Shown: one piece after another, positions 8,765 through 61,568 of the stretch
Layout of the letters: the number at the start of each line of letters is the position of its first letter
Position numbering within the stretch: position 1 is the stretch's first letter
From: an uncultured Sphingomonas sp.
Lineage (GTDB): Bacteria > Pseudomonadota > Alphaproteobacteria > Sphingomonadales > Sphingomonadaceae
NCBI RefSeq assembly: GCF_937871615.1
Contig: NZ_CALMPA010000012.1
Span: 1 to 64,000, forward strand
DNA: 64,000 nucleotides
Reading direction: 5' to 3'
Program-made: the position numbers and the translations under genes
The notes under the pieces: model-generated
The model's input: only the letters and a program-made list of their open reading frames with translations
The model's database searches: none
What the model was told of the DNA's origin: nothing

Positions 8765-8864
8765 CCCGTCATTTCCGCGAAGGCGGGAATCCTGAGGCAC
8801 TTGTGTTTCGCTTCTATCAGATCGTTCAGCGTGAATGGATTCCCGCCTTCGCGCGAATGACGGG
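8765..8864. repeat. REP-like palindromic repeat, copy A
   Basis: Left arm 8765-8792 (CCCGTCATTTCCGCG...GGAATCC) and right arm 8837-8864 are near-perfect reverse complements separated by about 44 bp. Each arm is itself partly palindromic (CCGC..GCGGG). Two further copies lie at 14529 and 44655. It starts 13 bp downstream of the stop of the ABC exporter gene and lies upstream of the next minus-strand gene. Likely a 3'-UTR hairpin or REP-family element. Confidence 0.85.
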
Positions 8865-14528: not shown

Positions 14529-14631
14529 CCCCGGCCATTCCCGCGCGGGCGGGAATCCGGAAGCACTGCGGTTGCGGCTCCATCATGGAGACCTGCGAGA
14601 ATGGATTCCCGCCTGCGCGGGAATGACGGGG
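14529..14631. repeat. REP-like palindromic repeat, copy B
   Basis: Arms at 14529-14558 and about 14603-14631 are reverse complements (CCATTCCCGCGCGGGCGGG against the ATTCCCGCCTGCGCGGGAAT side) around a variable centre. It lies 8 bp past the M48 protease stop and upstream of the DsbA gene. Same family as the elements at 8765 and 44655. Confidence 0.87.
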
Positions 14632-25369: not shown

Positions 25370-26299
25370 ATGAGCGATGGGCGGCATTACGAGGATCAGT
25401 ATCTGCGGCTGCTGCGCGACGTGTGGGAACACGGCGACGAGCGGCGCGACCGTACCGGCGTCGGCACGCGATCGCTGTTCGGCCCGACGCTGCGCTTCGA
25501 TCTTTCGGGGAACCGCGTGCCATTGCTCACCACCAAGCGCGTCGCGTGGAAAACCGCCGCGCGCGAGATGCTGTGGTTCCTCACCGGCGACACTAATATC
25601 CGCGAACTGGTGCGCCAGAAGGTGCATATCTGGACCGACTGGCCGCTTGACCATTATCGCCGCGAAACCGGCGAGGCGATCGACCGCGATGCGTTCGAGG
25701 CGCGTATCCTTGGCGATGATGCGTTCGCCGCAGCCTGGGGCGATCTCGGCCCGGTCTATGGCAAGCAATGGGTGAAATGGGACACCTATGAACCGGCGGG
25801 CGAGGGGCTGTTCCGGCGCGGTGCCCCGGTCAACCAGATCGCGGAACTGGTGCACGCGATCCGGCACAACCCCAGCTCGCGGCGGCTGCTGTTCACCGGC
25901 TGGAATGTCGCGGAGCTTGGTGGGATGGCGCTGCCGCCGTGCCACATGACCTATCAATATCATGTCGCGGGCGGGCGTTTGTCGGGCATGTTGTGGCAGC
26001 GTTCGTGCGATCTTGGCCTTGGTTTCGCGTTCAACGCCTTTTCGGCGGCGATGCTGCTCAGGATGCTGGCGCAGCAATGCGATCTGGAGCCGGGCGAACT
26101 GGTGTGGAGCGCGGGCGACGCGCATATCTATCTCAACCACGCGCATCTGGTGGAGGAGACGCTGGCGCGCTCCCCGCGTGGCGCGCCGCGCCTTCATATC
26201 GCGCGGCGGCCCAACTCGATCTTCGATTACCGGATCGAGGATTTTTCGGTGAGCGATTATGATCCGCATCCGCATATCGCTGCGCCGGTGGCGGTTTAG
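25370..26299 (+). CDS. thyA: Thymidylate synthase
   Basis: 309 residues. It converts dUMP and methylene-tetrahydrofolate to dTMP and dihydrofolate. The catalytic Cys191 is in ALPPCHMTYQYHV; RRDRTGVGTRSLFG (the folate- and phosphate-binding start), RSCDLGLGFAFN and DAHIYLNH are also family blocks. The ATG at 25370 gives MSDGRHYEDQYLRLLRDV, the normal N terminus; an in-frame upstream reading through the radC promoter region is rejected. The stop TAG is formed by the first bases of a 149-bp hairpin repeat. folA, its metabolic partner, lies 3.5 kb downstream after glcB instead of next to it. Confidence 0.97.
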   Translation: MSDGRHYEDQYLRLLRDVWEHGDERRDRTGVGTRSLFGPTLRFDLSGNRVPLLTTKRVAWKTAAREMLWFLTGDTNIRELVRQKVHIWTDWPLDHYRRETGEAIDRDAFEARILGDDAFAAAWGDLGPVYGKQWVKWDTYEPAGEGLFRRGAPVNQIAELVHAIRHNPSSRRLLFTGWNVAELGGMALPPCHMTYQYHVAGGRLSGMLWQRSCDLGLGFAFNAFSAAMLLRMLAQQCDLEPGELVWSAGDAHIYLNHAHLVEETLARSPRGAPRLHIARRPNSIFDYRIEDFSVSDYDPHPHIAAPVAV

Positions 26300-26445
26300 G
26301 GCCGACGCGACATTCAACCCATGCCGGCCTGCAAATGGCGGTTTCCCGCGCTTTTCGGTGCTCACGTACCTTTAGTACGCTGCGCTTGCGGGTCACGGAA
26401 ACCACCATTTTCCGCTCGACCTGACCTGAATGTCGATTGGCCCTA
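26297..26445. repeat. 149-bp long-hairpin repeat element, copy 1
   Basis: An imperfect inverted repeat over its whole length. Outer arms are TAGGGCCGA...CATTCA (26297-26316) and TGAATGTCGATTGGCCCTA (26427-26445). Middle arms are AAATGGCGGTTTCC (26333-26346) and its one-mismatch complement (26397-26410). The apex is CGTAC-CTTTA-GTACG (26365-26379). A second copy of the same length, roughly 90% identical by eye, lies at 60178-60326. The terminal TAG on each strand is the stop codon of thyA and of the LysR gene. It could act as a bidirectional terminator or be a non-autonomous mobile element. Confidence 0.85.
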
Positions 26446-27330
26446 GAACGCCGCGTCGGCGAATATCTCGCGCAGGAAGGCGATGAACGCGGTGACCGCC
26501 GGCAGGACGGTGGGCGCGGCGGGATGGACGGCATAGATGCCGACATCGGCCGATCCCTCCCATTGCGGCAACACGCGGACCAGCGCGCCACGCTCCAGCG
26601 CGTCGCTCACATCCCATAGCGAGCGCAGCGCGATGCCGGACCCGGTCAGCGCCAGTTCGCGCACGATCTCGCTGGAATTGGTGGCAACCGCGCTCGGCTG
26701 ATCCACCGTCGCGCGGCGCGTGCCGCTCACCAGCCGCCATGGCATTTGCCCGCTCGCGGCGAGCAGCCGCTGCTCCGCGAGCGCCGCGATCGTTTCCGGC
26801 GCGCCATGCCGCGCAAGATAAGCCGGCGCGGCGCACAGCAGACGGTGGCTGGTGCCCAGGCGATGCGCGACGAGGCCCGATGCGATCTGTGGCGCGATGC
26901 GGATCGCAAGGTCTATGCGCTGGGCCAGCAGGTCGTCGAACCCGTCGGACAGGTTGAACTCCAGCGCGACAGCGGGATAGGCATCCAGAAAGCGGTGGAG
27001 GCGCGGCGCGATATGCAGCCGCCCGAACGACGTGGGTGCGGACACGCGCAGCGGGCCGCCGGGCGCGGCGCTCACCCCGGTGAGGCGCGCCTCCGCCGCC
27101 CGAACATCAGCAAGGATCGTCGTAAGATCGGCGTGGAAACGGGCGCCCGCCTCGGTCAGCGCGAGGCGCCGCGTGGTGCGATGGACGAGGCGCACGGCGA
27201 GCCGTTCCTCCAGCCGTGCCAGCCTTTTCGACACCATCGCCGGCGAGATGCCGAGCGCGCGACCGGCGGCGGAAAGGCTGCCGGCTTCGACAACCTGCGC
27301 GAAAAGCTCATAATCCGGATCGAGCATCAT
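26443..27330 (-). CDS. LysR-family transcriptional regulator
   Basis: 295 residues. The N-terminal winged HTH is [53 protein letters not shown]-like (residues about 8-62). The LysR substrate-binding domain runs to the end ([43 protein letters not shown]). The effector is unknown. It is divergent from malate synthase glcB with an 89-bp shared upstream region, the usual arrangement for a LysR regulator and its target, so control of glcB is a reasonable guess. ATGs at 27330 and 27327 are both possible. Its stop codon TAG is supplied by the flanking 149-bp element. Confidence 0.92.
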
Positions 27331-44654: not shown

Positions 44655-44756
44655 CCCCGTCATTCCCGCGCAGGCGGGAATCCGCTCTCGCACGCGCCCC
44701 GGATGGAGCCTTGACGACAGTGCTTATAGATTCCCGCCTGCGCGGGAATGACGGGG
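44655..44756. repeat. REP-like palindromic repeat, copy C
   Basis: CCCCGTCATTCCCGCGCAGG...GAATCC (44655-44683) and its exact reverse complement ending GACGGGG at 44756 flank about 44 bp of unrelated sequence. The outer arms are perfect. It begins 19 bp past the stop of the flavoenzyme gene. The best preserved of the three copies. Confidence 0.9.
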
Positions 44757-59072: not shown

Positions 59073-59337
59073 GCGGCAGGCGTTCCAGCGCTCGTCCGGG
59101 TGAATATATTGTAATTCAATATCTTATTCCGGTTGCAGCCATTTCGGTACCGTTCTTTTCCCGGCGATGGTCTCGGCGCGCGTCGGTCCTTTCCGCCATG
59201 TTTTCCTTTATCCGCGCGAACGGTTTCTGAAACGAAAACAGCAGGCGGTGGCGTGGATCGCAAAAATTGATCGCAAAATTGGTAGCAAATGTTGACCTTT
59301 TTGGTGCTAACGCCATTCTCAACGGGTGAGGGATGAA
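59073..59337. promoter_or_regulatory. A/T-rich upstream region of the AraC-type gene with palindrome
   Basis: 265 bp without a gene. A 17-bp palindrome ATATTG-TAATT-CAATAT lies at 59106-59122 and a tandem near-repeat GATCGCAAAA(A)TTG at about 59257-59280. TTGACC near 59293 could be a -35. The palindrome resembles a dimeric regulator site. Confidence 0.45.
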
Positions 59338-60180
59338 ATGGCGAACGCGGATAACTCGCCCGTCACTTTCTGGCGGGCGAGTGAAAGGTTTGAAGGGCTG
59401 GTAACAGGGTTTCACCGTTTCCGGCTTGGACTTCCCTCCGCGGTGCCGTTTCGAGACGTTTTCTTTCCGAGCTTCGCCACTATTCGGTTTGCGATCGAAG
59501 ATGCACGGCCCTGGTCGATGCGGCTTGGCGCGCGCCGGTTTGACATGCCGTTCGCCTCGTTCGCCGGGCCAACCGACGTGGCCGGCTGGGTGGAGGCGCA
59601 GGGCGGCGCGGTTGTCGGCCTCGGGCTGCGCGCGCAAGGGTGGGCGCGGTTGTTCGGTGGCGATCTTTCCGCCTACGCCAACCGGGTCGTCCCGCTCTCA
59701 ACGCTTGATATCGGCGCCGACGCGCTGCTCGACAAGCTTGACGGATGCGAGCATCCGCCGGCGGTGTTCGAGCGATGGCTCGATTGCCTGCTCGCCGCGC
59801 GCCGCACGGTCGATCCGCGGCTGACGCGGCTGGAGGCGCTGATCGCGGACGCGGCGACGGCGCGGATCGAAACGCTCGCGGAGGAACTCGATCTCACCGC
59901 GCGCCAACTCGGCACGCTGTCGCGGCGGAATTTCGGGTTCACCCCCAAGGTGCTGCTGCGCCGCCGCCGTTTCCTTCGCGCGCTGAGTGTCACGCTGGAT
60001 GCCGCGCCCGAGGAATCTGGCGGGTTGCTGGCAGAGGCGGGTTATTGGGATCGCTCGCACTTCCTGCGCGATGCGCATCTTTTCCTTGGTTGCTCGATCC
60101 GAGAATTCCGCCAGCGGCGCGGCCCGCTCCACGCGCTCGTCATGCAGACCCGTGCCGAAGTGCTCGGCGCGCCGGTCTAG
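59338..60180 (+). CDS. AraC-family transcriptional regulator
   Basis: 280 residues. The N-terminal domain (about 1-150) is an effector or dimer domain that I do not recognise. The C-terminal part has two HTH motifs: RIETLAEELDLTARQLGTLSRRNFGFTPKVLLRRRRF and GGLLAEAGYWDRSHFLRDAHLFLGCSIREFRQRRGP, the AraC/XylS signature. The ATG at 59338 follows GAGGGATGAA; a GTG at 59326 is possible. It lies between acyl-CoA dehydrogenase genes and a double-TetR regulator and may respond to a catabolic intermediate. Its stop TAG is the first triplet of the second 149-bp repeat. Confidence 0.88.
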   Translation: MANADNSPVTFWRASERFEGLVTGFHRFRLGLPSAVPFRDVFFPSFATIRFAIEDARPWSMRLGARRFDMPFASFAGPTDVAGWVEAQGGAVVGLGLRAQGWARLFGGDLSAYANRVVPLSTLDIGADALLDKLDGCEHPPAVFERWLDCLLAARRTVDPRLTRLEALIADAATARIETLAEELDLTARQLGTLSRRNFGFTPKVLLRRRRFLRALSVTLDAAPEESGGLLAEAGYWDRSHFLRDAHLFLGCSIREFRQRRGPLHALVMQTRAEVLGAPV

Positions 60181-60326
60181 GGCCGATCGGCATCCAACCC
60201 ATGCTGGCCTGCAAATGGCGGTTTCCCGCGCTTTTAGGTACTCACGTACCTTTAGTACGCTGCGCTTGCGGGTCACGAGAAACCACCATTTCCGGCTCGA
60301 CCTGGCCTGAATGTCGATCGGTCCTA
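60178..60326. repeat. 149-bp long-hairpin repeat element, copy 2
   Basis: Same length and structure as the element at 26297-26445. Outer arms TAGGGCCGATCGGCATCCA (60178-60196) and TGAATGTCGATCGGTCCTA (60308-60326). The central segment from about CTCACGTACCTTTAGTACG through GGGTCACG is identical to copy 1, whereas the arms differ by several substitutions. It again lies between convergent genes (AraC-type and TetR-type) and supplies TAG stops to both. Confidence 0.85.
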
Positions 60327-61568
60327 AGCCGCGATCGCGCGATCGTCGAACAGGCCGAACATGAGGGTGGAGGCGTAGAGCGCGATGGCGCGTTCGCGCG
60401 GCATCGACCAGGCCCATTTGCGCATATCGAACGCCGCGTTGAGAAACGCCATCAGCGCCTGCGCCGCGATCAGCGCATCGACCGGGCGGATCGTTCCTTC
60501 GGCGATGCCATCGGAGATGGTGCCGGCGAAGCGCCGCGCGATACGGTTCGATCGCTCCACCATCACCTGCCGCACGCCCAGTGGCAGCGCGGTGAGCGCG
60601 GTGGTGCGAAGCAGCGGCCCCAGTTCGGAGAATTGCACGTCGAGCAGCGTCGCGATCATGCTCGCCAGCCGCTCCCAATGGTTGCCGTCGCGCTCGTCTG
60701 CCAGGCGCTGCGCGGCGGCGATCGCGTCGAAGCTGCGCTTGTAGCAGGCGACCACCAGATCGTCCTTGGCGTCGAGATGATGGTAGAAACTGCCCTTGGT
60801 CACGTTCAGTTCGGACGCGATCCGCTGAACCGATGCGCCGCGATAGCCGAGTTCGTTAATCAGGCGCGTCGCGGCGAGCAGGAAGGCTTCGCGCCCCGGC
60901 ACCGCCTCGTCATGCGGCAGGCCGATCGGCTCGGGCCGCCAGATGGCGTGCGGCCCGGCGATGCCATGGCGGAACACATCCATCAGCCGCGCTTCGGCCC
61001 GGCCATATTGATCGGGCTCGTAACGCCCCAGCCACACCGGCAGCCAGAAGGTGTTTTCCAGCAGCACGTGCGCGCGCGCGCCCTTGAGATCGGTTTCGTC
61101 ACGGGTCTGGGCCGGCCCCCATAACAGCCGGGTGCGGCGGAACACCTCGCGCCAGCGCGCCATCAGCCGCGATCGCACGGGTTCGTCCATCGCGCGCAGA
61201 TCGGAAAGGCCGGCCATCTGCCGTTCCTCGCCGCGCTGAACCCGCGCCAGCCGCGCCATGTTGAGCGCGAGATAGCGTTCGACCCGCGCCTCCGGCGTCG
61301 GCTCCGTCATCGCCTGATCGAGCATGTCGAGCAGCGAATCGAGCGTATGCTCGAACGCGGCGGCGGCGAGATCCTCCTTGCGCTTGAAATAATAAGTGAC
61401 GCTGGTGGTGTTCAGGCCCACGCGCCGCGCGACATCCGCGAAGGTCATGCCCTTCGCGCTCTGTTCGTTGATTGCGTCAGCGGCCGCGGCAAGGATCGCA
61501 TCACGCTTCGCCCGGAAGCGGCGCGTGCTCGTATCCTCCCCCCGGCCGGTTTCCCCAGAGCCGTGCAT
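60324..61568 (-). CDS. Tandem double-TetR transcriptional regulator
   Basis: 414 residues, about twice a normal TetR protein. The first TetR HTH is TFADVARRVGLNTTSVTYYFKRKEDL (residues about 42-67). A ligand domain follows to about 220. A second HTH, SVQRIASELNVTKGSFYHHLDAKDDL (about 246-271), precedes a second ligand-type domain. Both recognition helices look intact. It is divergent from an acyl-CoA dehydrogenase gene with a 155-bp shared upstream region, so repression of that gene and the following alcohol dehydrogenase is likely. The fused form could bind DNA as a monomer or bridge two sites. Confidence 0.9.
   Translation of the reverse strand: MHGSGETGRGEDTSTRRFRAKRDAILAAAADAINEQSAKGMTFADVARRVGLNTTSVTYYFKRKEDLAAAAFEHTLDSLLDMLDQAMTEPTPEARVERYLALNMARLARVQRGEERQMAGLSDLRAMDEPVRSRLMARWREVFRRTRLLWGPAQTRDETDLKGARAHVLLENTFWLPVWLGRYEPDQYGRAEARLMDVFRHGIAGPHAIWRPEPIGLPHDEAVPGREAFLLAATRLINELGYRGASVQRIASELNVTKGSFYHHLDAKDDLVVACYKRSFDAIAAAQRLADERDGNHWERLASMIATLLDVQFSELGPLLRTTALTALPLGVRQVMVERSNRIARRFAGTISDGIAEGTIRPVDALIAAQALMAFLNAAFDMRKWAWSMPRERAIALYASTLMFGLFDDRAIAA

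Follow-up and report, generated by a model that had tools for sequence, protein, structure and literature searches.

Insertion sequences of the IS630 group duplicate the TA at which they insert and prefer CTAG as target, and for IS630 itself a preference for the TA within CTAG is reportedly stated in the title of a 1991 paper by Tenzen and Ohtsubo. In the alphaproteobacteria, the class in which the element described here is found, CIR (Caulobacter and other members) and RIME (rhizobia) are described as intergenic repeats. CIR are tied to CcrM sites, GANTC. According to PMC2170065, TA duplications flank insertions of the IS630 family, and the pneumococcal RUP, a 107-bp element with IS630-Spn1-like ends, is over-represented between convergent genes (PMC3049150). 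Repeats that lend stop codons to their neighbours are also on record. The pneumococcal BOX encodes the stop codon in 36 of the 58 CDSs that it overlaps, with truncation of these genes described as lacking strong evidence (PMC3049150), and the termini of GTAG REPs, which prefer gene 3' ends and lie downstream of genes, often give the flanking ORFs their TAG; REPs are 20-40 bp long, carry a tag on one end and are linked to RAYTs (PMC3733652).

The element analyzed here is a 149-nt fold-back sequence with hosts among many soil and plant bacteria, and it occurs twice in the window, the whole 64,000-nucleotide stretch of Sphingomonas DNA that was analyzed. The copies and the genes that they separate are as follows.

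26297-26445, strand not applicable: copy 1 of the element, a near-palindrome of 149 bp whose ends are both TA.
26370-26374, plus strand: CTTTA hairpin apex of copy 1, from sequence and fold.
25370-26299, plus strand: thyA-like gene ending ...APVAV-TAG; the TAG (26297-26299) is the first triplet of copy 1.
26443-27330, minus strand: LysR-type regulator ending ...FADAAF-TAG; the TAG (26445-26443) is the last triplet of copy 1.
60178-60326, strand not applicable: element copy 2, a 149-bp palindromic repeat.
60250-60254, plus strand: CTTTA hairpin apex of copy 2, from sequence and fold.
59326-60180, plus strand: AraC-type regulator ending ...LGAPV-TAG; the TAG (60178-60180) is the first triplet of copy 2.
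60324-61568, minus strand: TetR-type regulator of 414 aa ending ...RAIAA-TAG; the TAG (60326-60324) is the last triplet of copy 2.

An earlier note on this DNA had described two 149-bp copies folding end to end, each between convergent genes and each with TAG as the terminal triplet at the gene ends on both sides. Our analysis bore this out, as both copies are exactly 149 bp, both separate convergent genes, and gene calling placed all four stops in the terminal triplets of the element. The predicted folds reach -62.6 kcal/mol (z -4.9) for copy 1 and -68.4 kcal/mol (z -5.3) for copy 2, none of 200 dinucleotide shuffles was as stable as either, and each copy can be aligned to its own reverse complement. 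The copies are 91% identical across the whole element, and their identical centre, put at 35 bp in the earlier note, has a longest run of 37 bp. No Rfam family matched anywhere in the window at the gathering threshold, and the exact 34-bp core gave no match in a genome contig collection from which records of the own genome were possibly excluded.

The two copies belong to a dispersed family. In the own Sphingomonas genome (3.99 Mb) 18 full copies were found by blastn, and a covariance model built from the own-genome copies added three weak ones. With the covariance model, 36 of 295 genomes of the genus had matches, where at most ten candidates were scored per genome and copy numbers in the relatives are thus lower bounds; across the order, matches were seen in 66 of 296 genomes and in 23 of 79 genera. 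The element is also carried on plasmids, with 31 plasmid records matched by a Sphingomonas query copy and 34 by a Shinella query copy. The plasmid hosts are Sphingomonadaceae and Rhizobiales, including Sphingobium, Novosphingobium, Shinella, Agrobacterium, Phyllobacterium and Ensifer; the genus tallies name no Sinorhizobium and hold one Ensifer record in each of two tallies. A search of phage records with the element gave no match. For the analyses below a set of 128 copies was fetched, of which 127 were 144-151 bp long (about 146 bp); this set excludes L009-L011 and L014-L018 (superseded by L054-L061) and L019-L024 (fragments, second-strand matches, or superseded), and it omits some copies of the relatives (at contig edges, weak, or beyond those fetched). 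One match, G215:C1:1416917-1416989, has two element ends within a span of only 73 bp and is likely an internal-deletion derivative.

Of the two readings offered in the earlier note, a non-autonomous mobile element or a dedicated stop cassette, the first is supported by the dispersed copies, by TA at both ends and by empty sites that are gapless at TA. TA is present at both ends in 57 of the 128 copies, and when their flanks are joined on one TA a YTAR results in 51 of the 57, with CTAG in 27. Judged from the letters, a TA duplication would look no different from the insertion of a sequence merely ending in TA. The terminal TAs of the window copies, all of them within stop codons, are listed here together with the alignments on which they rest.

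26297-26298, plus strand: TA at the left end of copy 1, in the ThyA TAG; putative half of a target duplication, the joined flanks corresponding to the empty sites in G083, G210 and G007, gapless at TA.
26444-26445, minus strand: TA at the right end of copy 1, in the LysR TAG; the other half of the putative duplication, from the empty-site alignments.
60178-60179, plus strand: TA at the left end of copy 2, in the stop of the AraC-type gene; empty site in G210, gapless.
60325-60326, minus strand: TA at the right end of copy 2, in the stop of the TetR-type gene; from the empty-site alignments.

The earlier note had proposed to compare orthologous loci lacking the element for target duplication, and this comparison gave single-TA gapless empty sites at three loci, namely those of copy 1, copy 2 and the own copy L008. 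Of the ThyA loci, 29 were compared and three reach across the copy-1 site, with TTAG in G083, CTAG in G210 and CTAA in G007, and all are gapless at the TA (G007 has one gap far off). In all three a long forward and a long reverse frame end on one common TA, giving a 4-nt tail-to-tail overlap in which ThyA ends in ...APVAV and LysR in ...AAF or ...TAF. The TetR comparison took in 109 loci. Six of them reach across the copy-2 site, and two of the six are gapless, L176 (in G210) and L251 (Sphingomonas sp. 3P27F8), which apparently represent one species; in both, one CTAG is common to the AraC and TetR stops. The copy-2 site was gapped in G083, L250, L252 and L181. In G083 (L174) a 24-nt TA-bounded insert lies at this site between the TetR-type and AraC-type genes, and on inspection it resembles an element end and may be a deletion remnant. 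For L008 the alignment to G083 was gapless, with GTAA at the site and the TAA stop in place.

Other copies of the own genome gave less simple pictures. For L002 and L054 the aligned relatives (three each) have TGA at the stop and not TAR, so that one has to suppose a change from TGA to TAR prior to insertion. At L056 the relatives show another spacing and TGA is the stop of the right gene, and for L005 a search for KdgK orthologues gave best matches of at most 67% identity. L006 (locus positions 1501-1649) lies away from stops, both flanking called genes ending in TGA 26 bases off, and is apparently inserted into the loop of a GC-rich hairpin. A palindromic target was considered and rejected, as flank symmetry showed no excess over re-paired flanks (224 matches vs a mean of 214.8, sd 11.3). 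At L028 the flanks form a 10-bp palindrome round the TA (ggcgctgggcTAgcccagcgcc), so that both convergent genes end in the same codons.

The empty sites bear directly on the proposal that insertion of the element took place within coding sequence, close to gene ends, and left truncated or capped proteins. The G of each TAG belongs to the element, which thus literally completes the stop, as this proposal would have it, but both stops are already present in the empty sites, and the element-free orthologues end at the same codon (ThyA and LysR in G083, G210 and G007; AraC and TetR in G210). Ten element-free ThyA orthologues that were read all have the same final residues, followed by TAA or TAG in four and by TGA in six. 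Since the orthologues and empty sites keep the same gene ends, the window proteins have not been shortened by the element, and the truncation claim is refuted for both window copies. In the wider family a stop lies within the element for genes at only 7 of 128 copies, and the element is rarely inside a called gene (2 of 128 copies). We consider truncation or capping extremely improbable.

To relate element ends to stop codons we called genes in the 1.5-kb flanks of the 128 copies with a home-made codon-model caller, which reproduces all four window stops. As background we used YTAR sites between called genes in one genome, the own one (864 kb, elements removed, gaps >600 bp excluded). Placement of the copies relative to stops was not random; a random one would have spoken against the earlier note. 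A stop lay exactly at an end in 51 of the 57 both-TA copies, compared with 58 of 308 background YTAR sites (Fisher p 5e-25, as for all Fisher tests here under the assumption of independent copies, though some are orthologous or sister copies). Stops were found at both ends in 11 of these copies, at one end in 40 and at neither in 6; 41 of the 57 lay in convergent, 15 in tandem and 1 in neither setting. In the 71 copies with TA missing at one end at least, a single stop was seen in 33 and no stop in 38. Altogether 95 gene ends coincided exactly with an element end in the 128 copies.

An effect of this kind could arise by chance, if gene ends in GC-rich DNA often carry CTAG and any TA-targeted element would look alike. 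This accounts for part of the effect, as 27 of 43 background YTAR sites in convergent gaps are themselves stops. In the own genome at least one stop lay exactly at an end in 12 of 19 scored copies; for the own both-TA copies alone the fraction was 9 of 12 (p 6e-5), and split by gene orientation the excess was non-significant within both convergent and tandem gaps. Over all copies, however, the excess persisted in convergent gaps (39 of 41 copies vs 27 of 43 background sites, p 2.5e-4) as well as in tandem gaps (12 of 15 vs 31 of 159, p 3.6e-6), and because of the tandem copies YTAR targeting alone is insufficient to explain the enrichment. The same pattern was seen again in other genera, where 8 of 9 both-TA copies and 11 of 15 across all loci had a stop at an end, these loci being inspected only once the idea had been formed. 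We find chance very improbable as the explanation. The preference for stops rather than the remaining YTAR sites of such gaps may possibly reflect tolerance, targeting or selection, all three being compatible with a background as small as 43 convergent sites from one genome.

Plasmids could be compared using public annotation. Nineteen regions were fetched and 18 scored, L388 having no annotation, and in 10 of the 18 a CDS ends exactly at an element end, while seven regions and L379 have no such CDS end. The regions with a coincident CDS end are listed below.

L377, L378, L380, L381, L383, L385, L386, L389, L390 and L391: plasmid regions with a CDS end at an element end, public annotation.

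CDS ends fall at both element ends in L378 and L383; L377 and L378 are related. In the related plasmids of L381 and L386 the second stop is one base off, the end reading CTTA and not CTA. In L379 (Sphingobium sp. TomTYG72 plasmid, 2426-2809) the copy lies wholly within an annotated hypothetical protein beside repA, a CDS that may be mis-annotated.

Conservation of the fold was analyzed in an alignment of 94 distinct, hand-chosen copies (30 second-strand rows dropped from 124). Over 54 stem pairs 92.2% of the cells were paired, a figure inflated by the fitting of the alignment to the structure, compared with 27-40% for sliding partners, and both sides had changed in 530 cells vs 132 (sd 10) with shuffled partners. 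Homologous sequence up to one element end is shared by L049 and L119, where 9 pairs were compensated and 6 lost or gained, with no one-sided change. For further pairs of copies, for some of which it is not certain that they represent the same insertion (L064-L123 was not counted), the numbers compensated, lost or gained, and one-sided were 12, 7 and 2 (L043-L098), 6, 9 and 0 (L032-L094), 3, 9 and 5 (L066-L070), 5, 5 and 0 (L099-L138) and 8, 12 and 4 (L067-L141). The covariation fits selection on the hairpin, repair of the palindrome and conversion by another copy.

This strong covariation, and the pair L049 and L119 with no one-sided change, would fit a bidirectional stop and hairpin cassette maintained by the host, in which selection keeps copies because their hairpin terminates, insulates or protects both convergent mRNAs. 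The convergent setting of 41 of 57 intact copies vs 43 of 308 background sites, and the preference for stops even in convergent gaps, point the same way. However, covariation could also come from a mobile palindrome or from conversion by another copy, and pairing was kept less well in L032/L094 (6 compensated vs 9 lost or gained), L066/L070 (3 vs 9) and L067/L141 (8 vs 12). Presence is also patchy, with no match in 259 of the 295 genomes of the genus and in 230 of the 296 of the order, and the same loci in relatives manage without the element. A T-tract would be expected of a classical intrinsic terminator, but a run of four or more T's within 40 nt beyond the element was seen at only 15 of 256 ends and a search for T-tract terminators gave no match at the element, for which reason a terminator of this class appears unlikely. 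A host-maintained cassette is in our judgement possible, though doubtful.

We searched for a mobilizer of the element in 12 genomes (DDE_3 and Y1 domains) and in four of them for end pairs, but these searches gave no autonomous partner. The DDE_3 domain of IS630-type transposases (PF13358) was present in 4 of the 12, the own genome contributing an open frame of 176 aa, and none of the six DDE_3 loci had an IS630 with ends matching the element, which speaks against a resident IS630 as mobilizer. Y1_Tnp/RAYT (PF01797) was present in 3 of the 12, the own genome not among them, and was rejected, as no significant element match lay beside the DDE_3 or Y1 loci (one match had E 0.83). Facing end pairs 0.8-2 kb apart, looked for by eye with the 20-base end in four genomes, were not seen either. 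An IS partner would be recognised by the end sequence TAGGGCCGATCGACATTCAG.

These searches also bear on the possibility that the element is a REP/RAYT-type repeat like the GTAG REPs, moved as single-stranded DNA by an HUH tyrosine transposase. The resemblance is real in that the element is palindromic with TAG ends and that GTAG REPs likewise give TAG to flanking ORFs and favour their 3' ends (PMC3733652). In contrast to those repeats of 20-40 bp with a tag on one end, as the same text has them, our element is symmetric, about 146 bp long (144-151 bp) and bounded by TA at both ends, a G precedes TAG at only 6 of 147 ends, and where Y1 was found no significant element match was adjacent. We therefore hold this origin to be very improbable. 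As to the other known repeats, BOX resembles the element in supplying stop codons, a likeness by description only, and stops at both ends are not mentioned in the accessible part of PMC3049150. CIR and RIME were also compared by description, and GANTC, the site associated with CIR, is found in 30 of 128 element copies and in neither window copy.

The closest match is with MITEs. The element is short, dispersed and non-autonomous, with terminal inverted repeats and no transposase gene, and it has empty sites at three loci and TA at both ends in 57 of 128 copies. In these respects it is like MITEs derived from IS630/Tc1-mariner elements, such as RUP. Unlike RUP-type MITEs it is palindromic over its full length, its ends preserve stops, and no IS with matching ends was found in the IS630 loci or the end-pair scan. 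A TA duplication and a preference for CTAG (27 CTAG and 51 YTAR among 57 copies) are traits of the IS630 group, and this pattern suggests a transposase that is IS630-like or similar. In a literature search that covered few subscription papers no description of the family was found, and in the text of the MITE review PMC10969869 neither "stop codon" nor "convergent" occurs. The statement of the earlier note that no named family has this property is thus upheld for the naming of the family and contradicted for the property, since GTAG REPs (PMC3733652) and BOX (PMC3049150) are reported to supply stops too. As far as the literature was searched, the family, the stops at both ends, the stop-preserving YTAR rule with its empty sites and the spread over two orders are new.

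Taken together, our results argue that the family is quite probably an unnamed MITE-like, fully palindromic and non-autonomous element that targets YTAR, keeps stops intact on insertion and places a covarying hairpin at the 3' ends of mRNAs. The element (about 144-151 bp) would insert at the TA within YTAR, most commonly CTAG, leaving TA at both ends, and it would be moved by a TA-duplicating transposase of the IS630/Tc1 or IS5/IS427 type. In this GC-rich genome a YTAR at convergent gene ends would often be one stop, or the 4-nt overlap of both, and the G adjoining the TA at each element end would convert TAA or TAG to TAG on that side. Where both stops use one TA, both genes would keep their stop at the same codon, with unchanged proteins. 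Each gene would then have a predicted long hairpin at its 3' end, and a YTAR hit inside a reading frame would give no in-frame TAG. Possibly, such sites are retained as a harmless or mildly useful 3'-end structure of the mRNA. A bolder version, which we think rather unlikely, is a widespread alphaproteobacterial element whose ends have evolved as stops, spreading by replacement of the shared convergent stop and then selected as a bidirectional 3'-end hairpin, i.e. a portable insulator moving between Sphingomonadales and Rhizobiales.

The preferred reading, a stop-preserving mobile element, provides a testable rule, by which a palindromic target that is a stop on both strands, combined with an end base by which the stop is restored, would let a mobile element fill a compact genome harmlessly. 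Loci with and without the element form a natural series on the effect of a stop-codon hairpin on convergent transcription, and for annotation the rule offers a check on genes that end beside such repeats.

Two further observations were made in the window. The TetR-type protein (60324-61568) by eye apparently contains two TetR-like parts, and most of the 121 genomes sampled from the genus have a near full-length match to it, at about 67-96% identity. A second palindromic family (about 100 bp, ends CCCGTCATTCCCGCG...) is found at 8765-8864, 14530-14631 and 44655-44756; its copies lie 8-304 bp off the neighbouring called genes and touch no stops, and they form a contrast within the same window.
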